Source: a virus. Taken from it: a stretch of 22,834 nucleotides of DNA. Below are positions 5,364-18,399 of the stretch, piece by piece. Location of the stretch: positions 1 to 22,834 of the IMG/VR virus record IMGVR_UViG_3300048590_000229; one strand, written 5' to 3'. Made by a program: the position numbers and the translations under genes. The number at the start of each line of letters is the position of its first letter. Within the stretch, counting starts at the first letter, position 1. The notes below the pieces were generated by a model. That model ran no database searches. It worked only from the letters and a program-made list of their open reading frames with translations, and had not been told where the DNA came from.

Positions 5364-8309
5364 ATGATCCAGTTCACCGCCTCCGTCTGGGCCGACATCC
5401 TCGCGCAGAGCACCGCGGCGGGCCGCGCCACGGTCCTGGCCGGGAAGTTCCCGTCGGGCGGCACGATCGAGCTGCTCGACGCAGCCGCCTCCGTGATCCG
5501 CACGATCGACATGGGCCCGTGGACGGTGAGCGGCGCGTATGCCGTCCCGGGCACCTACACCGACTCGGCGCTCGGTGGCGGCACGCCGGCCGTTGCGGTG
5601 TTCAAGGCCGGTGCGACCGAGATCATGCGGATGACGTGCGGCACGTTGGCCGGCGCCGACTACCGGCTGCTCGCCAACATCGTGGCCGGCGTGCCGATCC
5701 GGCGCGGCCCGTTCGCGGTGCTGTTCTTGCCGCCGCCCGCACCTGGCACGTCGCAGCCGAGTATCGTCTCCGCGCCCACGATCAGCGGCGTGGCCAGGGT
5801 CGGCCAGACGCTCACCGCCACGCCAGGCGTCTACGCGGGCAATCCGGTGCCCGCTGTGGCTCGACAGTGGTATTCCGGCGCGACTGCCATTTCCGGTGCC
5901 TCGGGCCTGTTCGTCACGCTCACCGGCGACGAGCTGGGCGGCATCATCACGTTCAAGGAAGTGCCGTCGAACTCGGTAGGCTCGATCACGGCAGTGAGCA
6001 ACTCGCTCGGGCCGGTGGTGGCGGCGGACCTGAATGCCGACGCGATCCCGGCGACCATCCAGATCAACCAGGGCGGGACGTTCGACCTGACGCCCTACGT
6101 CGTGGGCGGCGTGCCTCCCTACACGGCTGCGGTGGCGGTTGGCTACAGCCTGCCGACCGGGGTGACGCTGACCGGCCCGATGGAGCTGTCGGCGGCCATC
6201 GACGCGCCGCTGACCGAGGAACCGCTCCCGACGGTCAAGTTCGACATCGACGACTCTGCGCCGGTGGCGGCCACGCTGCCTGAGTTCGGATTGCTGTCCG
6301 AAACCGGCGGCACAAATCTGCCATTTACGGCCGCACATCCGTTCGATGAAGGCGCGGTCACGGCTGGAAATTCCGTGGTCGCCGACGGACTTTCGACTTG
6401 GCAGTGCATCCCGATCAACACCTGGCCGGACGGCTCGATCAGGCTGGCGTGGGTCAGTGGCCGGGCCACGCTGACGCAAAACGTCGCTCGCACATTGCAA
6501 CTGTCGGTCGGCCCGGCGAATGCAGGCACGCACCAATCGCTCGCCACGCTCCGGGCAGGGCTCACTTCCGGGTCAGTACAGGTGGCAGGTGACACCATTG
6601 ACCTGCCGACGCTGATCGCGGAAACGCCGTTCGACCTGTTCGGGAACGGCACGAATGCCATCTTCACCGGGCCGGAATGCTCGTACTGGATCTGGCGCAG
6701 GCGGGTCGCTGGCACCGCTCATCTTGAGCTGTTCGTGCCGATCCGGCTCTATGCTGGCGGCGCTATCGAAGTCATCACGCCGTGGGTGCAGAACGGGGAC
6801 TTCCTCGTTCCGGCTCCGACGGCCTACACCATCGGAATCACGCTGACGCTCAACGGCACGGTGCGGTACTCGCAGCCGTCGGTGACGATCTATCACCACC
6901 AGGTGCTGCCCCTCGTCAACGGCGATTCGACCAGCCGGAGCTACTGGTACAGCGGCACCGATCCGAAGGTGATCCCGTTGCACGACACGGCGGCGATTCA
7001 AGCCACGAAGCTTACGCCGAAATACCGCAGCCTGACGCCGAGCAGCACCAAGCTCGACAGTCTGACGCAGACGTACACCCCAGGGTGGAAGGGGAACACC
7101 ACAACTGGCATGAGCGACCCAGGGGCTAGCCCGCACATCGGCCCGCTCCCTCAGTGGTGTGCGCTGTACCTGACGAGCGGCGGGGATCGCCGGGCCTACG
7201 AGTGCGTGATTGCGAATGGCCTGTCGGCGGGGGCTCGGCCCGCCCACTACCGCGACAGCGGCGGCTACGGGGAGAACACCGGCCGCTACCTCAAGCAATC
7301 GAGTTACCCACAGGCGTCTCTGGCATCGCAGATGACTCCGGTAATACCGACAGGAACGGGCGGAACGCCATACGGAATCGACACCGCGCACCAGCCCTCG
7401 CTTGCCTACCTGCCCTGGATGCTGACCGGCGACATCTACTTCCTAGAGGAGCAGATGGCGTGGGTCACGCACAACTACATCTATTACAACTGGCTGTTCC
7501 GCGACCAGGCAGAAGGCATCTATCACCTGTCGAGCCGTGAGGAGCGCGGCATGGCGTGGGCTTTGCGGTCGCTGGGCCATCTGGTGGCTTCGGTTCCTGA
7601 CACGCACACTCTGCGCAGCGAGTGGATCAGCCAACTCCAATACAACGTGATCCACTGGCACGACAACTACGTGACCGGGACCGAGGGTACGGGGCTGGCG
7701 AACAACCTCGGCCTGATCCACAGAAAGTCTGGCGTTAGCGTCTATCAGAGCGCGAGCGACCTGGGAACGGCAACCCCGGTCGCGTGGTACGGCGCACCGT
7801 GGATGATGCACTTCCAGACAATGGCGCTGAAGATTTGCAAGGACATCGGGCCTGACATTTCCGCGCCCGCGCAATCTGCTCTCGACGCGCTGGTGCAATT
7901 TTCCGGGGGTTTCGCCACTGGCCTGGCTGGCGGAAACAGCAGCGGGTGGCCGTTCACGCGCTTTGCGCAGTATGTGTTCCCGATGCAGGACACGTTCGCG
8001 GGGGGCGGAGACTGGATGCCAAGCTTCGCGGCGGCGTGGACGTCATACAAGCTTGACCAGGGATTGCCGGAGGAAACGCCGTCGGCTGGCGATCCGATCT
8101 GGATACAGAACAGCACGATCAACTACGTCAGCGCGTTGCAGTGGGCCGAATCGAGTGCGCCAGCGACCGCCCTTGCTGCGCTGGCCTGTGCTGTCGAGGA
8201 AGGTGTGACCGGCGCTCAGGATGGTTGGAACAGCGTCACCGGAGCATCAAACTTTAGTACGGCGAGCATGAACGATTCGCCGCAATACGCACTGGAGCCG
8301 AGGCAATGA
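5364..8309 (+). CDS. Large tailspike/fibre candidate with Ig-like domains and a polysaccharide-lyase-like C-terminus
   Basis: A 981-aa probable receptor-binding protein. Residues 1-125 form an N-terminal module probably used for virion attachment. About 130-215 is a phage-type Ig-like domain (PTISGVARVGQTLTATPGVY...QWYSGATAISGASG), and about 218-275 a second putative Ig fold (PYVVGGVPPYTAAVAVGY). From about 290 a beta-sandwich-like segment carries TWPDGSIRLAWVSG. A helical region with HQPSLAYLPWMLTGDIYFLEEQ, SSREERGMAWALRSLGHL and WHDNY follows at about 670-800 and resembles alpha/alpha-toroid lyases of the exo-rhamnogalacturonan lyase (PcRGLX/YetA-like) type. Depolymerase activity toward a host glycan is inference; no catalytic residues can be assigned. 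It is first in the adhesion operon after the repeated element, with a weak AGGA 10 nt before the ATG. GC content drops from about residue 310 onward. Confidence 0.72.
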   Translation: MIQFTASVWADILAQSTAAGRATVLAGKFPSGGTIELLDAAASVIRTIDMGPWTVSGAYAVPGTYTDSALGGGTPAVAVFKAGATEIMRMTCGTLAGADYRLLANIVAGVPIRRGPFAVLFLPPPAPGTSQPSIVSAPTISGVARVGQTLTATPGVYAGNPVPAVARQWYSGATAISGASGLFVTLTGDELGGIITFKEVPSNSVGSITAVSNSLGPVVAADLNADAIPATIQINQGGTFDLTPYVVGGVPPYTAAVAVGYSLPTGVTLTGPMELSAAIDAPLTEEPLPTVKFDIDDSAPVAATLPEFGLLSETGGTNLPFTAAHPFDEGAVTAGNSVVADGLSTWQCIPINTWPDGSIRLAWVSGRATLTQNVARTLQLSVGPANAGTHQSLATLRAGLTSGSVQVAGDTIDLPTLIAETPFDLFGNGTNAIFTGPECSYWIWRRRVAGTAHLELFVPIRLYAGGAIEVITPWVQNGDFLVPAPTAYTIGITLTLNGTVRYSQPSVTIYHHQVLPLVNGDSTSRSYWYSGTDPKVIPLHDTAAIQATKLTPKYRSLTPSSTKLDSLTQTYTPGWKGNTTTGMSDPGASPHIGPLPQWCALYLTSGGDRRAYECVIANGLSAGARPAHYRDSGGYGENTGRYLKQSSYPQASLASQMTPVIPTGTGGTPYGIDTAHQPSLAYLPWMLTGDIYFLEEQMAWVTHNYIYYNWLFRDQAEGIYHLSSREERGMAWALRSLGHLVASVPDTHTLRSEWISQLQYNVIHWHDNYVTGTEGTGLANNLGLIHRKSGVSVYQSASDLGTATPVAWYGAPWMMHFQTMALKICKDIGPDISAPAQSALDALVQFSGGFATGLAGGNSSGWPFTRFAQYVFPMQDTFAGGGDWMPSFAAAWTSYKLDQGLPEETPSAGDPIWIQNSTINYVSALQWAESSAPATALAALACAVEEGVTGAQDGWNSVTGASNFSTASMNDSPQYALEPRQ

Positions 8310-9490: not shown

Positions 9491-10762
9491 ATGCCTTCTG
9501 TAGCCGCAACCTCAGCAAAAACCAACAACTCGTCGACGCTTACGAAATCCGGGATCACAGTCGGCACCGGCCAGGCGCTTCTGGTCAAACTCTACGTCGC
9601 CAACTGGGACAGCACCGATATTTCAAGTACGCCGTCGGTGACATTCAACGGCGTGGCGCTGACCAAGCACAGCGAGGAGCTTTCTACGTCCGGGAACGGG
9701 GCGAAGAACTATGCGGCAGTCTGGTATGGATCGCCGTCCGCCGCGACCGCCTCGGTAGTTGCATCGCTTGGTGGTAACTACCAAGTCTCTTTCATGGAAA
9801 TCGAGGTCGTCTCCGACCCCGAATCGCCGCTGATCCGGTCCGTGGATTTCGTGACCGGCGATGCTGCATCGGAAGTGTCGAACTCGATCACGACGGTTTC
9901 CGGCGATCTGGTTACTGACCTGCTCCGCTGGCGCAACGACTCGGGAAGCTGGAACGCGCTAACGCCTGGAGGCGGGCAGTCGGAACTGATCGACGAAGCC
10001 GGCCCGCCGGAAGCCGAGAACTACTGCATGGCGTCGTCTTACGAGCAGGCGACCGGCACCAGCACCACGATGTCATACACGCTGACCGATGCAGGCAGCG
10101 ATGGCACGGGGTTCGTGCATATCCTGGTGGCCCTGACTGGCTCTGCTCCCGGGACAACGGTCACCCTGACCCCCGACCCGGCTTCCGTTCAGGTCGGCAG
10201 CACGCGCACCTTCACGGCCACCCGCAGCGCAGCGGCCGGAGCTGGCGGGGTGACGTACAACGTCGCGTCGAGCAATCCTGCAGTCGCAACGGTGCCCACC
10301 CCGCAGACGCTCACCGAGGCCGATAGCGACCTGACGTTCGATGCCACGGGAGTGAGCGTCGGCACGGCGAACATCACCATCACCAACGCGGCCGACTCGA
10401 GCGAGACGGATACCGTGGCGCTGACGGTGACGGCGGTCACGACCAAGCGGGCGAAGTTCCTCGTGCATCCCGACTTTGCCTCGGCGACCGGCATCACGAT
10501 CGAGGTCAACGAGGCGCCGACGGGCGGTGCTCTGACGGGCGCGAAGCTGGGCTTCACGACCGGCGTCGCCGCGGAGGCCACGCTGGAAGGCGGCCAGGCG
10601 GTCATCAAGGTGAACGCCGCCGACGTAGGCGCTTCTGCCTTGGCAGCTGCGACCAGCGTGCGGGCGATCTTCAAGGGCCTCGCGGCGTCAGGTTCGGCCT
10701 TGGGCAGCGGAGCTGAGGCCGGCAGCGTCGTCGTGGCCACCGGCACGATCATCGAGGAATAA
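9491..10762 (+). CDS. Phage fibre protein with a bacterial Ig-like (BIG2-type) domain
   Basis: A 423-aa Ser/Thr/Ala/Val-rich protein with AAGGA about 8 nt upstream of ATG 9491. Residues about 1-215 form a beta-rich jelly-roll-like domain (SGITVGTGQALLVKLYVA, FMEIEVVSDPESPLIRSV, GFVHILVALTG). Residues about 220-318 are a BIG2-like Ig domain (TVTLTPDPASVQVGSTRTFTA...ATGVSVGTANITITNAADS). The final about 100 residues (KFLVHPDFASATGITIEVNE...SVVVATGTI) form another beta domain. No catalytic motif was seen. Probably a structural fibre or receptor-binding accessory; Ig domains in phage proteins typically bind carbohydrate or decorate virions. It lies 9 nt after the propeller gene and 4 nt before the next gene, within one operon. 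Confidence 0.65.
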   Translation: MPSVAATSAKTNNSSTLTKSGITVGTGQALLVKLYVANWDSTDISSTPSVTFNGVALTKHSEELSTSGNGAKNYAAVWYGSPSAATASVVASLGGNYQVSFMEIEVVSDPESPLIRSVDFVTGDAASEVSNSITTVSGDLVTDLLRWRNDSGSWNALTPGGGQSELIDEAGPPEAENYCMASSYEQATGTSTTMSYTLTDAGSDGTGFVHILVALTGSAPGTTVTLTPDPASVQVGSTRTFTATRSAAAGAGGVTYNVASSNPAVATVPTPQTLTEADSDLTFDATGVSVGTANITITNAADSSETDTVALTVTAVTTKRAKFLVHPDFASATGITIEVNEAPTGGALTGAKLGFTTGVAAEATLEGGQAVIKVNAADVGASALAAATSVRAIFKGLAASGSALGSGAEAGSVVVATGTIIEE

Positions 10763-10766
10763 CGGC

Positions 10767-12902
10767 ATGTCGAACGTCGCGCTGACCACCCGGGACGGGT
10801 TCGCCAACGTCGCGGTGACGACGCGCGTCGAGACGCCGATCGCGCCGACGATCACGACCACCGCGCTGCCCGGCGGCACGGTCGGCGCGGTCTACAACCA
10901 GACGATCCAGGTCACCGGCACGGCCCCGATCACCTGCACGATCCAGTCCGGCTCGCTGCCGCCCGAACTGACGCTGAATGCGACCACGCGGCAGATCACC
11001 GGGCCTGCCCTGGCCACGCCTGGGCTTTACGAGTTCACGGTGCGCGCGACCAACGCGGCCGGCTTCGACGACCAGCTGCTTTCCATCCTGGTGCCGAACG
11101 AGGGTTCGGGCGGCACGGCGCCCGTGGTCACGACGGTCACGCTGGTGCCGGCGACGGCCGAGATCGCGGCCGGCGGTGAAACTGTCGATCTGGTCGCCAC
11201 CGTGGAGGATGAGAACGACGACCCGATCCCGAATCTGACAGGCACGCTTGGCAGCACGGCGATCGCATCGGCAGCAGGCGCGCAGCTGGCGCCGACCGAT
11301 GCTTCCGGCCAGGCCACAGTGCGGGTGACGAGCGCCAGCGAGGCCGGCACGGCCAACATCACGATCACCTTCGACGGCGTGGTGAGCAACGCCGCGGTCA
11401 TCACAGTGCGCTCGGGCGTCGAGGCGCCTACCGACATCACGCTCTCGGCGTCGTCGGTCCCCGAGAACTCGGCCAATGGCACGGTCATCGGGGCGCTGGC
11501 CGCCGTCGACCCGGATCAGCCCACCGGACACACGTTCAGCCTGACTGCCGACGCGGGCGGGCGCTTCGGCATCAGCGGCTCGAACCTGGTGGTGGCCAAC
11601 GGGTCGCTGCTGAACCGCGAAGCGGCGAGCAGCCATTCGATCACGGTCCGCGTGACCGACGCCGACGGGCTCACCTTCGACAAGTCGTTCACGATCACGG
11701 TCACGAACGTCAACGAGGCACCCACCGGCATCGCGCTGTCGGCCAGCTCGATCATCGAGGGGGCGGCAAACGGCGCGATCGTGGGCTCGCTCACCCGGAC
11801 CGACCCGGATTCCGGCGACACGGGCACCTTCTCGCTCGATGACGACGCTGGCGGGCGCTTCGCGATCGTGGCCACGGGTGCCACGACGGCGAACCTGGTG
11901 GTCGCTGACGGCTCGCTGCTCGACTACGGAACCGCGCAGAGCCATGCGATCACGGTGCGCTTCACCGACGCGGGCGGCCTGTTCACCACGCAAGCCTTCA
12001 CGATCTCGGTGCTCGAGGTCGCCTCGGGCGTCACGAGCGTCACGGTCACCCCGGCCGGCGCCTCGATCGCGAGCAACCAGACGCAGCAGTTCAGCGCGGT
12101 CGTGGCCGGCTCGCCCACGCCCAGCCAGGATGTCACCTGGTCGGTGGTCGCCGGCCCGGGCTCGATCAACGGCGCTGGCCTTTACACGCCGGCCGGCGGC
12201 GGCACGCCTACCGTCCGGGCCACGTCGGTGCAGGCCCCGAGCATCTTCGGCGAGGCCACGCTCACGGTCGTGGCGGTCGACGAGTCGGCGCCGTCCGTCT
12301 CGATCACCGCTTCGGCGTTGTCGGTCACCGAGCCCGGCTCGATCCTGCTCACGGCCAACGCGACCGACAACATCGGCGTGACCGAGGTCCGGTTCTATCG
12401 CGATGGCGCGCAGATCGGCCAGCCGCTGCTTGCCGCGCCATTCCAGCGCACGCTCACCGTTGGATCGAGCGCTGACAACGGGACGTTCGCCTTCACCGCC
12501 CGGGCCAACGACGCCGCGGGCAACTCCGCGCTGAGCGCGCCGCTCTCGATCACGGTCAACGTGGCCGGGGCGCCGCTGGCGCGCTCCACCGGACTTGCCG
12601 ACATGATCGAGATTCCCCGCAAGGACACCACCCGGGCCATCGTGTTCCAGCTCGCCGACGCGACGACCGGCGATCCGCTGTCGGCCGCGGTGCCCACCGT
12701 GAGCCTTTCGCGCAACGGCGGCGCGCCGCAAGCCGCCACCGGCGTGGTGACCGAAACCCAGATCCCTGGCACCTACGTCTACATGCCCAGCGAGGCCGAC
12801 GTGAACGTGGAGGGCGACATGCTGATCCTCGTCTCGGCCACCGGGGCGGCGGCGCTCGCGCCGATCACCACCCGGGTCGTCACCCCCTACGGCAAGCGCT
12901 GA
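10767..12902 (+). CDS. Multi-Ig/cadherin-repeat phage fibre protein
   Basis: A 711-aa protein built as a string of beta-sandwich domains. A putative Ig (He_PIG-like; GGTVGAVYNQTIQVTG...GLYEFTVRATNAAG) lies at about 22-112. A BIG1-like domain follows at about 120-214. Two tandem cadherin-like repeats occupy about 217-315 and 316-415; both carry SxSS(V/I)xE, DAGGRF, LVVA(N/D)GSLL and SHxITVRxTDAxGL. A BIG2-like domain lies at about 418-505, and a BIG/Ig domain with DNIGVTEVRFYRDG at about 508-610. The C-terminal about 100 residues differ and may be an attachment domain. Cadherin repeats usually bind Ca2+ through acidic residues (DPD, DAD, NVNEAP present here). Probably an adhesion fibre. GAGGA lies 8 nt before the ATG. 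Its TGA begins copy 2 of the repeated element. Confidence 0.7.
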   Translation: MSNVALTTRDGFANVAVTTRVETPIAPTITTTALPGGTVGAVYNQTIQVTGTAPITCTIQSGSLPPELTLNATTRQITGPALATPGLYEFTVRATNAAGFDDQLLSILVPNEGSGGTAPVVTTVTLVPATAEIAAGGETVDLVATVEDENDDPIPNLTGTLGSTAIASAAGAQLAPTDASGQATVRVTSASEAGTANITITFDGVVSNAAVITVRSGVEAPTDITLSASSVPENSANGTVIGALAAVDPDQPTGHTFSLTADAGGRFGISGSNLVVANGSLLNREAASSHSITVRVTDADGLTFDKSFTITVTNVNEAPTGIALSASSIIEGAANGAIVGSLTRTDPDSGDTGTFSLDDDAGGRFAIVATGATTANLVVADGSLLDYGTAQSHAITVRFTDAGGLFTTQAFTISVLEVASGVTSVTVTPAGASIASNQTQQFSAVVAGSPTPSQDVTWSVVAGPGSINGAGLYTPAGGGTPTVRATSVQAPSIFGEATLTVVAVDESAPSVSITASALSVTEPGSILLTANATDNIGVTEVRFYRDGAQIGQPLLAAPFQRTLTVGSSADNGTFAFTARANDAAGNSALSAPLSITVNVAGAPLARSTGLADMIEIPRKDTTRAIVFQLADATTGDPLSAAVPTVSLSRNGGAPQAATGVVTETQIPGTYVYMPSEADVNVEGDMLILVSATGAAALAPITTRVVTPYGKR

Positions 12903-12960: not shown

Positions 12961-13488
12961 ATGTCCAGGAAGCTCAACCCCCACGGGATCACCGAGAAGC
13001 AGGCGCGCTTCGCTCAGGAGTACCTGATCGACTGCAACGCCGCGCAGGCCGCAAAGCGGGCCGGCTACGGCGCGCCCTACGAGCGGCGCGGCTATGAAGT
13101 GCTGAAGAACCCAAGGGTGGCCGCACTCATCAAGGCCGAGCAGGCCAAGTTGCGCGAGAAAGCCGGTATCGAAGCTGAAGATGTCGTGAACCAGGTCGCG
13201 GCGATCGTGTTCGCCGACCCGCGCAAGACGGTCGACAAGAAGGGCGTGCCGCTCGGGCTGCACCAGCTGGACGATGCGACCGCTGCGGCCGTGGCCAGCT
13301 ACAAGGTGACGGAGGGCGAGCAGTCGCGAACCGTCGAGGTCAAGTTCTGGGACAAGAACAGCGCGGCCGAGAAGCTGATGAAGCACCTGGGCCTGTTCGA
13401 GAAGGACAACCGCCAGCGTGCCGACCCGCTGGCCGAGCTGGTGCAGATGCTTCATGAGCGCGGCTCCCGACTCCCTGTTCGTCGTTGA
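12961..13488 (+). CDS. terS: Terminase small subunit (Terminase_2 type)
   Basis: A 175-aa protein with the hallmark start of the Terminase_2 family: GITEKQARFAQEYLIDCNAAQAAKRAGY (in pieces GITEKQARFAQEYL and IDCNAAQAAKRAGY), then VLKNPRVAALIKAEQ. This N-terminal HTH region recognises phage DNA for packaging. The middle is a helical oligomerization region and the C-terminus (SAAEKLMKHLGLFEKDN) is typical of the family. It would form a ring that recruits the large subunit to concatemeric DNA. ATG 12961 is the only plausible start and lacks a clear Shine-Dalgarno sequence. The 3' end overlaps the large-subunit gene by 35 nt. Confidence 0.9.
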   Translation: MSRKLNPHGITEKQARFAQEYLIDCNAAQAAKRAGYGAPYERRGYEVLKNPRVAALIKAEQAKLREKAGIEAEDVVNQVAAIVFADPRKTVDKKGVPLGLHQLDDATAAAVASYKVTEGEQSRTVEVKFWDKNSAAEKLMKHLGLFEKDNRQRADPLAELVQMLHERGSRLPVRR

Positions 13489-16012
13489 GGACTGGGAGAG
13501 CCCGCACTGGCGGCTCAACCACCTTTACACGATCGTCGACGACGAGGGCGCCGAAGTCCCGTTTCGCATGAACGGCGAGCAGGAGAAGCTGTTCGCGAAC
13601 CTCTGGACCTGGAACCTTGTGCTCAAGGCTCGCCAGGTCGGCTGCACGACACTCGTTGCGCTGATGGCGCTCGACCAGTGCCTTTTCAACACCAATTTCT
13701 CAGCTGGCGTCATCGCGCACAACCTGGACGACGCCACCAAGATTTTCCGCAACAAGGTCAAGGCTCCCTACGACAAGCTGCCGGAAGCGCTTCGCGAGAA
13801 AGTGCCCCTAGCATCGTCGACCTCGAGCGAGCTGGTGTTTGCCAACGGGTCGTCCATCGGCGTGGGCACGTCCATGCGCTCGGGCACGCTGCAATTCCTG
13901 CACATCAGCGAGTTCGGGAAGATCTGCGCCAAGTTCCCGGACAAGGCCAAGGAGATCGTCACCGGATCGTTTCCGACGCTCAAGGCCGGGCAATTCCTGT
14001 TCGTCGAGTCCACCGCGGAAGGCCAGGAGGGCTACTTCTACGAGTACGTGCGGGACGCACTTGCCGCGCAGAAGGAAGGGCGCCAGGAAACCGTCCTCGA
14101 CTTCCGGCTGCACTTCTTCCCGTGGTGGGAGAAGAAGGCCAACGCGATCGACCCGACCGGCGTGGTCATCGACAGCGAAATGTCGAAGTATTTCGTCCGG
14201 CTGGAGAAGGATCACGGCATCCGGCTCGCGCCCGAGCAGAAAGCCTGGTACGTCAGGACCGAGGCCAAGCTCAAGGGCGACATGAAGCGGGAGCACCCGT
14301 CCTACTGCATCGCCGGTACGGAACCAGTGTTCTCGCCCGCTGGCATCACGCAGATGAAGGATGTGCCGGTTGATGGCGCCACGGTCACGCGCTTCTTCGA
14401 TCAAGGCGAGAAGCCGGTATTCACACTGACAACGGATCTTGGCTACGAACTGACCTGTACCGCCGATCACCGCATCAAGACGCAGAACGGGTTCGTCGAG
14501 GCCCAATACCTCAAGCCAGGCGATCCGGTTCTGCTCGGACTTGGCGCTGGCGGAGGGTCGCCACAGATTGTCACATGGCATCCGTTGCCCTGCATCGAGT
14601 CTCGAATCGCGATCGATGAGGATTTCGCCGAGTTCGTGGGCTTCTTCATGGGCGATGGTTCACTGGGGCGGGATGTGCTCTCCGTCGTCTGCACCGCCGA
14701 GGACGTTGACGTGATTGATCGCGTGAAAACGCTCATCCGGCAGCACTTCGGATGCGAGCCCGGCTCGCGGGCGATCGGGTCGAACGCCGGTGGCGTAGAA
14801 ATTCGGGTCGCGAATGTGCGCCTCAAGTCAATGTTCAGCGCGCTCGGGCTGCTTCGCGAGAACGGCTCAGGCGGCATGATGCGAAAGGTCCACGTACCAG
14901 ACTTCATCAAGCGGTCGCCGACCCCGGTGGTGCGCGCCTTCTTGCGGGGACTATTTGAAGCGGATGGGTTTGCCCAGCGCGATGGAACAGGGGTGAAGTT
15001 CTTCACGAAGTACGCCGATTTCGCGCGTGACGTTCAACTGCTTTTGCTGCGCTTCGACATTACCTGCCGGCGCGCGCGTCACGACAAACACAACAGCGCC
15101 GGCTACACCTACGAAGGATGGGAGCTCACGCTGCGAACTGCGGAGGCGGCGCACTTTTCCGAGGCGATTGGTTTCGTCTCAGCCCGCAAACAGGCTCGCG
15201 CGATGATCCGTAAGGATGTGGCCGACGGCTATCGCGCCAGGCGCTTGCGGATCGACGGTATAGACACGGTGCGCAGCATCGTACCGGCCGGCGTGGCGCC
15301 CACCTTCGACATCACGACCGACACACATGAGTTCGTAGCCGGCGGGATCGTGGTGCACAACTGCGAAGAAGCCTTCGAGGTCGCCATCGACGGCGTGATC
15401 TACGCGCGCGAGCTCGAGCTGATGCGTCGGCACGGCCAGATCACCGACGTGCCATGGGATCCGTCGCTGCCGGTGAACACGTTCTGGGATCTGGGCCTGG
15501 GCGATGCCATGTCGCTGTGGTTCCACCAGCGCGTCGGCATGCAGAACCGGCTCATCCGCTACTTCGAGGATGCCGGCGAGGGTCTGTCGTACTACGTGAA
15601 CGAGATCCGCAGCCACGGCTACACGATGGGCACGCACTACCTGCCCCACGACGCCGACAACCGCCTGATGGGCGAGAACGTCGAGACGACGGCCGACATC
15701 CTGCGCCGGCTGCTGCCCGGCCAGTTCGTCGTGGTGGACCGGATCCGCGAGATCAAGGACGGGCTGAACAAGACCCGCGAGTTCCTGCCGAGCTGCTGGA
15801 TCGACCGGACCAACTGCGCCGCCGGGATCAAGGCGCTCGACTCGTACCGCTACGAGTGGGACGAGAAGCTGGGCCGCTGGAAGAACCACCCCTTGCACAA
15901 CTGGGCCTCGCACGCGGCCGATGCGCTGCGGCAGGGCGCCCAAGGCTTCAAGCCGCTGGGTGCCGCTGAGCCGGGCGGCTTCACCCGCCATCGAAGCAGC
16001 TGGAGAGCATGA
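13454..16012 (+). CDS. terL: Terminase large subunit precursor containing an intein
   Basis: An 852-codon precursor; removing the 352-residue intein leaves a 500-aa protein, the normal size for this packaging ATPase/nuclease. The ATPase domain has the variant Walker A KARQVGCTT (residues 58-66, Cys64 where Lys or Phe are more usual; the Lys of this family precedes the loop), then TNFSAGVIAHNLDDATKIFRNK in pieces, and a Walker B-like LHISEFGK with E153. The intein interrupts HPSY/CEEAF after residue 284. After it comes the RNase-H-like nuclease domain with FWDLGLGDAMSLWF, YLPHDA and NWASHAADALRQ. The protein translocates DNA into the prohead through the portal and cuts it. ATG 13454 is chosen because an upstream GTG (13418) reads out-of-family sequence. 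The stop overlaps the portal start (ATGA). Confidence 0.92.
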   Translation: MSAAPDSLFVVEDWESPHWRLNHLYTIVDDEGAEVPFRMNGEQEKLFANLWTWNLVLKARQVGCTTLVALMALDQCLFNTNFSAGVIAHNLDDATKIFRNKVKAPYDKLPEALREKVPLASSTSSELVFANGSSIGVGTSMRSGTLQFLHISEFGKICAKFPDKAKEIVTGSFPTLKAGQFLFVESTAEGQEGYFYEYVRDALAAQKEGRQETVLDFRLHFFPWWEKKANAIDPTGVVIDSEMSKYFVRLEKDHGIRLAPEQKAWYVRTEAKLKGDMKREHPSYCIAGTEPVFSPAGITQMKDVPVDGATVTRFFDQGEKPVFTLTTDLGYELTCTADHRIKTQNGFVEAQYLKPGDPVLLGLGAGGGSPQIVTWHPLPCIESRIAIDEDFAEFVGFFMGDGSLGRDVLSVVCTAEDVDVIDRVKTLIRQHFGCEPGSRAIGSNAGGVEIRVANVRLKSMFSALGLLRENGSGGMMRKVHVPDFIKRSPTPVVRAFLRGLFEADGFAQRDGTGVKFFTKYADFARDVQLLLLRFDITCRRARHDKHNSAGYTYEGWELTLRTAEAAHFSEAIGFVSARKQARAMIRKDVADGYRARRLRIDGIDTVRSIVPAGVAPTFDITTDTHEFVAGGIVVHNCEEAFEVAIDGVIYARELELMRRHGQITDVPWDPSLPVNTFWDLGLGDAMSLWFHQRVGMQNRLIRYFEDAGEGLSYYVNEIRSHGYTMGTHYLPHDADNRLMGENVETTADILRRLLPGQFVVVDRIREIKDGLNKTREFLPSCWIDRTNCAAGIKALDSYRYEWDEKLGRWKNHPLHNWASHAADALRQGAQGFKPLGAAEPGGFTRHRSSWRA
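14306..15361 (+). mobile_element. In-frame intein with LAGLIDADG homing endonuclease in terL
   Basis: A 352-residue intein. The N-terminal splice block begins with Cys1 (CIAGTEPVFSPAGITQMKDV). The block B motif TADHRI (TxxH, about residues 51-56) follows. The two LAGLIDADG (DOD) motifs are FVGFFMGDGS at about 109-118 and FLRGLFEADGF at about 212-222. The C-terminal blocks F/G are FDITTDTHEFVAGGIVVHN, ending in His-Asn. The +1 extein residue is Cys (codon 15362-15364). All residues known to be needed for protein splicing (Cys1, block-B Thr/His, penultimate His, terminal Asn, Cys+1) are present, so it looks splicing-competent. The endonuclease aspartates are also intact, suggesting an active homing element. 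It sits at the ATPase/nuclease junction of the terminase. Confidence 0.93.
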
Positions 16013-18399
16013 TGCAGCAGCGCTACTACGAACCGATCCAGTCCAGCCGCCTCGTCAATCCGGACGACCATCGCTTTGCCCAGGGCGGGCGCGACTTCGC
16101 CGAGCCCGAGAACGGGATGCCGCTGCGCACCCTGGAGCATTTCCTCGAGGATCTGCGCTGGGAGCCGACCTGGCGCACCGACGCGGACCGGGACTGCGAC
16201 TACTACGACAGCAACCAGCTCGACCCCGAGACGATCCACAAGCTCGAGGAAAAGGGGCTGGGCCCGCTCATCCGCAACATCATCAAGCCCACGATCGATG
16301 CCGTGCTCGGCCTGGAGGAGCGCACGCGCACCGACTGGAAGGTGGTGAGCGACTACGACGACGAGCAGGATGTGGCCGAGGCGCTGTCGGTCAAGCTGGT
16401 CGAGGCCGAGCGCGAGACGCGCGCCGACAACGCAATCTCCGACGCCCACGCCGGCCAGGTCAAGGCCGGGTTCGCCGCGGTCGAGGTCAGCCGGTCCAGC
16501 AATCCCTTCTGCTACCCGTACCGGGTCGAGCCGATCCACCGGCGCGAGCTGTACTGGGATCCGCGCTCGCGCAAGCCGGATTGGTCGGATGCCCGTTTCG
16601 TCATGCGAAAGCGCTGGTTCGACACGGACGTGGCAGCGGCCTATTTCCCGGCGCACGCGCAGCTGATCCGATTCGCGGCCGAAAACTGGGTCGGATGGGA
16701 GGAAGTCGCGCGCATCAGCGACTTCGACACCACGAGCCTCGTGCGCAGCCTGGAGCAAGAGCGCAGCACGTCGATTTCGGAAATGGAGTGGCGCGACAGC
16801 GCGCGCGGGCGCGTGTGCATCTACGAGGTCTGGTATCGGGTCTATCACCGCGGCTGGATCCTCAAGCTGCCGCGCGGCCGAACCGTCGAGTTCAACCAGG
16901 CCAACCCGCAGCACTTGGCGATCGTGACGGCCGGCGTGGTCGAGCCGATCGAGGCGGTCTACGACAAGCTGCGCTGCGCCTACTTCGTGGGCCCGCACCG
17001 GGTCGCGGACTTCGGCAGCAAGCGGCGCCGCTTCCCGTACATCCCGTTCTGGGGCTACCGGGAGGATCTGACCGGCGTGCCCTACGGGCTCATCCGCTCC
17101 ATGGTGAGCGTGCAGGACGAGATCAACGCGCGCCTGGCCAAGATGATGTGGCTGCTCAGCTCTCGGCGCACCGTCATCGACGCCGACGCTCCGGCGGTCG
17201 AGTTCAACACCCACTCGGACCTGACCCGCGAGATAGCCCGGGCCGATTCCTACATCGTGCTCAACCCGGGCCGGCGAAACGCCAACGCGATCACGGTCGA
17301 CGAGAACCAGCAGCTCGCCGACGCGCAGCACCGGGCGATGCTCGATGCGGTGGCCGCGATGCCCATGGTGAGCGGCATCTACGCTCCGCTGATGGGAAAT
17401 GTGAGCCAGGCCACGGCGGCGAGCGCGATCAAGCAGCTGATCGACCAGGGCACGACCACGCTCGCCGAGCTCAACGGCAACTACATGACGGCGCGCCGCG
17501 CGGTCGGCGAGGCGCTGCTCGAGCTGGTGCGCGAGGACAACGCGGACATTTCGGAGCAGGTCACGGTCGACACCGGCGTGTCCAAGCGCCAGGTCTACAT
17601 CAACCGGCGGGCGAAAGACCCGGGCACGGGCGCCGAGATCGTCGAGAACAGCGTGACGAACGCCTCGATCAAGGTGCAGCTGGCAGACGTACCGAACAGC
17701 CCGAGCTACCGCCAGCAGCAGTTCACGCTGCTCACCGAGGTCGCCAAGAGCCTGTCGCCCGAGGCCCAGCAGATCATGGTGCCGTTCATCATCGAGGCGT
17801 CCGACCTGCCCAAGCGGCGCGAGATCGCCAAGCTGCTGCGCGAGAAGATGGGCATTGCACTGGACGACAAGAGCCCGGAGGGCCAGGCCGCCAAGCAGAA
17901 GGCCGAACAGCAGGCCATGGCCGAGGCCGAGCAGCTGGCCAACAAGTTCGACGCCGAGCTGGAGGAATTGCAGGCCAAGGCGGCGAAGCTACGCGCCGAA
18001 ACCGACAAGATCCGCACCGATATTGCCCGCTCCGGCATGGACGAGCAGGGCAAGGCGGCGGCCAATGGCGAGCTCGACCGGGTGCGCGGCGACTACGAAA
18101 GCCGGATGCAGGAACTCACCCGCCAGCTGCAGGACGAGAAGATCAAGGCGGCCGACAGCAGGATGAAGTTGCAGGCCGAAACCGAGGCACGCGAGGCCGA
18201 AGCGCGCGAGGAAACCCAGCGCGAGCGCATCCGGGCCGAGGCCACGGTGAGCGCCGCCGAGATCGCCGCCAGCGCGAAGAAGGCCGAGGACAAGATCAAC
18301 GAGCGCATCGACGCGCTGCAGGCCGAGATGAGCGATCGGATCGGCGAAGTGGGCAAGAAGGCCGGCGAGAAGAAGAAAAGCGACGACGCCGAATCCTGA
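16009..18399 (+). CDS. P22-type portal protein with a long C-terminal coiled coil
   Basis: A 796-aa portal protein. The core (about 30-600) matches large podovirus portals: DCDYYDSNQLDPETIHKLEE and LIRNIIKPTIDAVLGLEERT (both near the N-terminus), IPFWGYREDLTGVPYGLIRS, VQDEINARLAKMMWLLSSRR, NVSQATAASAIKQLIDQG and LTEVAKSLSPE. It forms the dodecameric ring at the packaging vertex that couples terminase and neck. From about 617 to 790 the sequence is a charged Ala/Glu/Lys/Arg heptad region, a very long coiled coil comparable in place to the helical barrel of P22 gp1 (725 aa). ATG 16009 overlaps the terminase stop; a second ATG follows at 16012. The TGA at 18397-18399 begins copy 3 of the repeated element. 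Confidence 0.88.
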   Translation: MMQQRYYEPIQSSRLVNPDDHRFAQGGRDFAEPENGMPLRTLEHFLEDLRWEPTWRTDADRDCDYYDSNQLDPETIHKLEEKGLGPLIRNIIKPTIDAVLGLEERTRTDWKVVSDYDDEQDVAEALSVKLVEAERETRADNAISDAHAGQVKAGFAAVEVSRSSNPFCYPYRVEPIHRRELYWDPRSRKPDWSDARFVMRKRWFDTDVAAAYFPAHAQLIRFAAENWVGWEEVARISDFDTTSLVRSLEQERSTSISEMEWRDSARGRVCIYEVWYRVYHRGWILKLPRGRTVEFNQANPQHLAIVTAGVVEPIEAVYDKLRCAYFVGPHRVADFGSKRRRFPYIPFWGYREDLTGVPYGLIRSMVSVQDEINARLAKMMWLLSSRRTVIDADAPAVEFNTHSDLTREIARADSYIVLNPGRRNANAITVDENQQLADAQHRAMLDAVAAMPMVSGIYAPLMGNVSQATAASAIKQLIDQGTTTLAELNGNYMTARRAVGEALLELVREDNADISEQVTVDTGVSKRQVYINRRAKDPGTGAEIVENSVTNASIKVQLADVPNSPSYRQQQFTLLTEVAKSLSPEAQQIMVPFIIEASDLPKRREIAKLLREKMGIALDDKSPEGQAAKQKAEQQAMAEAEQLANKFDAELEELQAKAAKLRAETDKIRTDIARSGMDEQGKAAANGELDRVRGDYESRMQELTRQLQDEKIKAADSRMKLQAETEAREAEAREETQRERIRAEATVSAAEIAASAKKAEDKINERIDALQAEMSDRIGEVGKKAGEKKKSDDAES

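Follow-up and report, generated by a model that had tools for sequence, protein, structure and literature searches.

The large subunit of the phage terminase (TerL) is a frequent host of inteins, and the idea that such elements control DNA packaging has also been published. In mycobacteriophages, TerL inteins have been reported at seven sites, named a to g, two of which are one residue apart at Walker A, and both splicing and the cutting of intein-less alleles have been shown for several of them (PMC5050341). The TerL intein or inteins of the cyanophage Mic1 were described in the ATPase and nuclease domains, with a proposed control of packaging (PMC7156551), and that of phiCbK lies in the N-terminal part of the protein and has Pro1 (PMC3556154). 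Delta crAss-like phages also have TerL inteins (PMC7886860), although we found no account of the insertion site in that report. Inteins that share a site in orthologous proteins are, as a usual rule, close relatives, whereas those that occupy separate sites within one protein have often diverged strongly (PMC2814812).

Our study concerns the TerL gene of a complete IMG/VR virus record, a linear stretch of 22,834 bases that we call the window, which carries an intein in the linker between the ATPase and nuclease domains. We identified a full-length homologue in the crAss-like phage cr56_1 (NC_055890, Buchavirus), whose gene is annotated merely as terminase large subunit. Both are class 1 inteins with a LAGLIDADG endonuclease and occupy the identical TerL motif (33.7% identity by tblastn, E 4e-47; 36% in the alignment), but the cr56_1 intein is inserted three codons upstream (EH/CITPQEAC; here and below, the slash marks the insertion point), in a recoded gene (TAG = Gln) of an unrelated phage group. 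The mycobacteriophage sites fall within Walker A, Walker B, helices or the C-motif, or next to them (PMC5050341), whereas ours is in the interdomain linker, so that it differs from sites a to f, which that report placed in other motifs. Site g was also considered and rejected: the comparison of ET08 with the intein-free Gizmo reads YLASSPY/SKIG, elsewhere than the linker, and the ET08 intein is only distantly similar to that of the window. The inteins of Mic1 and phiCbK resemble ours as TerL inteins with endonuclease or Hint domains; the phage records that the window intein matched included none of either phage. The best solved matches, the TliVMA intein (PDB 7QSS/7QSU) and PI-PfuI (1DQ3), share the same fold of a splicing domain plus LAGLIDADG, but they belong to another host gene and have about 17-19% identity.

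The terminase gene and its genomic context

The TerL frame, including the insert, is open on the plus strand from a GTG at 13,418, with a likely ATG start at 13,454, to position 16,012. The N-extein (13,454 to 14,305, plus strand; 284 aa from the ATG) gives TerL matches to phrog_26724 and phrog_2 and has a predicted fold similar to T4 gp17; it contains the ATPase domain, with the Walker-A-like motif KARQVGCTT, and its last residues are KREHPSY. The C-extein (15,362 to 16,012, plus strand; 216 aa), recognized by a match to phrog_2472, the alignment and the predicted fold, opens with CEEAF, and its RNase H-like nuclease domain begins near TFWDLG. Counted from the ATG at 13,454, the joined exteins make 284 + 216 = 500 aa. 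A terminase small subunit gene (12,961 to 13,488, plus strand; phrog_51, E 1.9e-32) overlaps the TerL start, and the gene of a P22-type portal protein (16,009 to 18,399, plus strand; PF16510, E 1.2e-107) overlaps its stop and is followed, downstream of TerL, by a Phage_capsid_3 major head protein. The Burkholderia phages JC1, DC1 and BcepIL02 are among the named phages whose TerLs match best; since JC1 is classified in Lessievirus, the source of the window is likely a Bcep22-like podophage.

Other genes of the window were also recorded. A free-standing HNH endonuclease with a NUMOD4 domain (2,118 to 2,642; HNH_3, E 4.8e-12; NUMOD4, E 3.7e-11) is a probable second homing element on the contig. 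An ORF at 425 to 1,351 strongly matches HNH endonuclease families in PHROG (phrog_374, E 2.8e-82), although no Pfam HNH match was found in it, and it overlaps by 280 bases, in a different frame, the start of a replication-initiator-like ORF (1,072 to 2,121). Upstream of the terminase, the region 9,491 to 12,902 encodes two proteins: cadherin, He_PIG and several Ig-like domains were recognized in one, which is 711 aa long, and the other matches an Ig-domain structural protein family. The sole match of a 981-aa ORF at 5,364 to 8,309 is a weak one, to a single PHROG family without an assigned function.

A class 1 intein with intact motifs

The intein (14,306 to 15,361, plus strand), assigned from motifs, Pfam, alignment and model, comprises 352 in-frame codons in a frame that is open throughout; it starts with Cys-Ile-Ala and ends with Val-His-Asn followed by Cys, giving the junction KREHPSY/CEEAF, and these are exactly the coordinates proposed in an earlier note made from the sequence. 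Its features, all on the plus strand, are the N-terminal nucleophile Cys1 (14,306 to 14,308), the block B TxxH (T52-A-D-H55; 14,459 to 14,470), a LAGLIDADG endonuclease domain at about residues 104-305 (14,615 to 15,220; Pfam, model helices and matches to I-DmoI) with its first motif, EFVGFFMGDG (D117; 14,630 to 14,659), and its second, AFLRGLFEADG (D220; 14,936 to 14,968), the terminal His351-Asn352 (15,356 to 15,361) and, directly after the intein, the +1 Cys codon TGC (15,362 to 15,364). In an alignment of 40 related inteins, C1, T52, H55, D117, D220, H351 and N352 are invariant, as is G118 beside the first catalytic aspartate. Pfam Intein_splicing matches residues 17-352 (E 2.8e-9, above the model's cutoff) and LAGLIDADG_3 residues 208-288 (E 1.6e-15), and the closest NCBIfam models are of intein-bearing proteins. 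An AlphaFold2 model built with 40 family sequences has a mean pLDDT of 94.7 and holds the two LAGLIDADG motifs in helices 105-117 and 206-220, each with its catalytic acidic residue, as in a two-motif monomeric enzyme. Its top PDB matches are the TliVMA/PhoVMA inteins and PI-PfuI, followed by I-DmoI endonucleases, the best Foldseek E value being 1.5e-21 against the 7QSU intein. The GC3 of the intein (0.75) is lower than that of the flanking exteins (0.88 and 0.92), which fits a foreign insert.

With Cys1, the TxxH of block B, the VHN/C end, the Hint fold and a host protein that is collinear after removal, this element is very probably a complete class 1 intein with a homing endonuclease, mobile in the TerL of a P22-portal-type phage. 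An open 352-codon insert that has all the motifs and lies at one spot of an otherwise collinear protein rules out a chance pattern. Inteins commonly go through a stage of dead endonuclease or decay in the homing cycle, and a single copy on a contig without close relatives would be compatible with an element that splices but has lost its endonuclease, or that is decaying and merely retained. We consider this unlikely, because both aspartates, both LAGLIDADG helices and all the splice residues agree with the family-invariant positions and the frame is open; a structure model cannot separate an active intein from a slightly damaged one. Given catalytic residues that are invariant across the 40-sequence alignment, splicing and endonuclease activity are likely, and "apparently active", as the earlier note put it on finding the splice residues and both acidic motifs intact, is a fair inference from sequence.

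Insertion site and intein-free relatives

The alignment with seven intein-free phage TerLs shows a single clean gap of 352 aa within PS-x/x-E-E-A-F, and 80 of the 80 nearest IMG/VR homologues of the joined exteins have no intein and align straight across the site. Of 474 phage records in which TerL found a match, none covers 80% of the precursor at a single place. In a model of the precursor, whose matches include the T4 gp17, D6E and P74-26 terminases, the junction is predicted to fall inside a low-confidence linker (residues 281-287) that joins the final helix of the ATPase domain (260-280) to the nuclease core, which starts with a strand from residue 674; the model thus agrees with the earlier note that the domain boundary is the insertion site. 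The insert is in frame and long, and automatic annotation would give one protein of 864 aa, as expected if the segment belonged to the normal terminase fold, but the exact alignment gap and the clear intein fold rule this out and leave it a negligible probability. The closest intein-free relative, L017, has 54% TerL identity and an empty site. A nearer intein-less allele was not found for the window TerL, and recent homing is therefore not seen for this intein.

With the insert lying between the ATPase and nuclease domains, unspliced TerL would probably be inactive according to the model, and a signal late in infection could in principle trigger splicing and thereby delay packaging. This timing role, suggested in the earlier note and, for the TerL of Mic1, in the literature (PMC7156551), is quite improbable here: no regulation is visible in the sequence, the five TerL inteins tested in E. 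coli spliced quickly (PMC5050341), the uniform lack of the intein in the 80 nearest relatives indicates that the step is not needed for such phages, and a selfish element explains the sporadic presence. Thus, the earlier interpretation holds for a homing intein with intact motifs at a domain boundary but not for its role in timing.

A family of inteins at one terminase motif

Searches of viral contigs and genomes with intein profiles only, covering IMG/VR, one genome per species and named phages, yielded a family of 50 inteins, in which the window and cr56_1 are included. All 50 sit in TerL, within the motif E-Y-P-x-x-x-E-E-A-F. In a tree with 12 other inteins, of which three come from other TerL sites, they group as one clade (support 95/96); the order of the 12 among themselves is unsure owing to long branches. 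Within the window's group, the inteins are 39-55% identical and their TerLs 28-36%; inteins more alike than their hosts fit horizontal movement. Apart from a distant Streptomyces element and a Halorussus match, a search of plasmids found nothing. The TerL inteins of Perkons (P-loop), cr118_1 (nuclease part) and Dulem virus 41 were examined as candidate members and fell at other sites, outside the clade; that of the Gordonia phage JonJames was left out of the tree.

Several additional observations concern these genomes. Two members, L172 and L173, come from genome assemblies, and L173 and L279 form a nearly identical pair whose TerL exteins are 99.7% identical over 343 aa and whose inteins are just 95.0% identical, which suggests faster evolution or recombination in the intein than in the host gene. 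The N-terminal parts of the TerL frames of L101 (1,958 to 4,000) and L105 (1,814 to 4,000) have weak Hint matches, together with a weak LAGLIDADG match in L101; in addition to the intein in the linker motif, each of these genes thus probably contains another one. Directly upstream of the intein-bearing TerL of cr56_1 there is an annotated homing endonuclease gene (L007, 1,068 to 1,868). A second intein group (L153-L156, L285 and L288), related to the TerL clade at E values of about 1e-19 to 1e-37, has a common site in another protein, which looks like a glycosyltransferase (downstream flanks SPLKILEAGA, SWLKPLEMSA and SNIKWMESSM).

Register of insertion

We numbered the motif from its Pro (P+0) to its Phe (P+7) and defined the register as the position of the residue that follows the intein. 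With all registers set automatically except those of L104 and L172, which were set by eye, the 50 inteins are distributed over P+0 (7), P+1 (11), P+2 (25), P+3 (2, the window and L097), P+5 (1) and P+6 (4), and they are followed by Cys in 27 cases, Thr in 14 and Ser in 9. On the intein tree of 50 rows, the register requires 14 changes, against 23.0 with shuffled labels, and none of 200 shuffles was as low; at least 14 register changes would thus be needed on the best intein tree. AU tests reject a single clade for P+0 (p 4e-4), P+1 (7e-44) and P+2 (9e-112) and, weakly, for P+3 (0.036), and the P+6 inteins form one clade (support 98/93). In a smaller set, the intein tree needs 8 changes against 13.7 when shuffled (0 of 200 as low), whereas the terminase tree, which has long branches in this set, needs 10 against a shuffled mean of 11.2 (42 of 200 as low), a result that rejects the host gene as the cause of the register. 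As judged from these trees, the register follows the intein and not the terminase. The clearest case comes from the immediate neighbourhood of the window intein, with L097 (P+3), L272 (P+2) and L275 (P+1), whose inteins are 49-55% identical and whose TerLs are 29-36% identical.

Misplaced boundaries or misalignment could produce apparent register differences, since the exteins have diverged widely (28-36% identity within the window's group) and the anchor Pro is itself absent in the P+0 group. We regard such an artefact as highly improbable: the intein ends are pinned by C1 and by HN plus C, S or T, and the anchor spacing is constant once the inteins are removed, with the acidic P-2 and the aromatic P+7 keeping their distance in nearly all 50 spliced sites (the few residue exceptions are mainly crAss-like members). 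Moreover, the near-identical flanks of L097 and the intein-free L311 fix one register exactly, and misalignment would not be expected to make the register track the intein tree.

A fixed target at the DNA level was also considered and rejected, as the information per base over the 50 spliced sites peaks at the codons for P-2 (Glu) and P+7 (Phe) and is low between them; no longer shared DNA sequence appeared across these sites. The family departs from the usual relation between site and relatedness of inteins (PMC2814812), being one lineage in six neighbouring registers, with the register going with the intein and not with the host gene. As far as could be found in the literature, mostly outside subscription journals, neither a shift or sliding of an intein's register nor a linker-tied clade that changes register has been reported, and register change within one intein lineage is undescribed.

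The residue after the intein

Among 40 gapless unique intein-free motifs, the native residue at the position of the window's +1 Cys is Pro in 34, Ala in 4, Ser in 1, Phe in 1 and Cys in none. L017 reads HRENPSY-P-EEAF where the window has KREHPSY-C-EEAF, an outright codon replacement from CCG to TGC. The nearest intein relative of the window, L097, allows a closer comparison with L311, an intein-free TerL that is 75% identical to it and presents the empty site: L311 reads HQEYPTT-P-EEAFVASGNTFF and L097 HQEYPTT/C-EEAFVASGNTFF. The amino-acid change at the junction is thus conserved Pro to Cys both in the window and in this close pair with and without the intein. Since a precursor lacking the +1 nucleophile could not splice, the +1 Cys most likely arrived with the intein.

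The arrival of the +1 codon with the intein is not universal across the family, judging from two counter-cases. The crAss-like phage cr118_1, intein-free at this place, has a native Cys at the P+0 of the cr56_1 intein, and Thr, the +1 residue in 13 of the 25 P+2 members, is also the commonest native P+2 residue (21 of 40 relatives of the window). For the P+6 group, the IMG/VR search for intein-free relatives returned the query's own contig alone, and the phage matches were too distant for the native residue to be read.

Proposed mechanism

In the splicing that we propose, Cys1 would attack the peptide bond after PSY, the chain would be transferred to the +1 Cys and Asn352 would then cyclise, giving a 500-aa TerL and a free 352-aa intein. 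The endonuclease, freed or still in the precursor, would cut intein-less TerL genes at the stretch coding for EYP...EEAF, and repair from the intein-bearing copy would spread the intein; a motif that is conserved in many kinds of phage presents the enzyme with a common target. Splicing, DNA cutting, homing and the travelling of the +1 Cys codon with the intein are steps that we infer. Allelic homing by itself would keep the register fixed, and our guess is that the register may shift when a recipient that matches poorly repairs a break and the +1 codon stays on the intein side.

Another explanation of the registers is that related inteins residing in other genes, a reservoir outside the sampling, invaded TerL on separate occasions. 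The sampling, which covered only IMG/VR, one genome per species and named phages, and the long branches are compatible with this, but no intein of the clade was found outside the TerL motif, in searches that used the intein sequence only, and we consider separate invasions rather unlikely. To a further reading we give about an even chance: one intein lineage may have spread horizontally through very different TerLs with many register changes inside an eight-codon motif, at least sometimes bringing its own +1 nucleophile codon in place of a conserved host residue, so that the mobile unit would be the intein plus one codon and the target a protein-coding motif with no fixed nucleotide position.

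Taken alone, the window intein is one more phage intein, mainly useful for the correct annotation of TerL. The register-changing family is the part worth following, and the L097/L311 pair makes the reading of register and codon testable. If homing can shift the register and carry the +1 codon, an intein could also enter targets in which one exact codon does not yet encode Cys, Ser or Thr.
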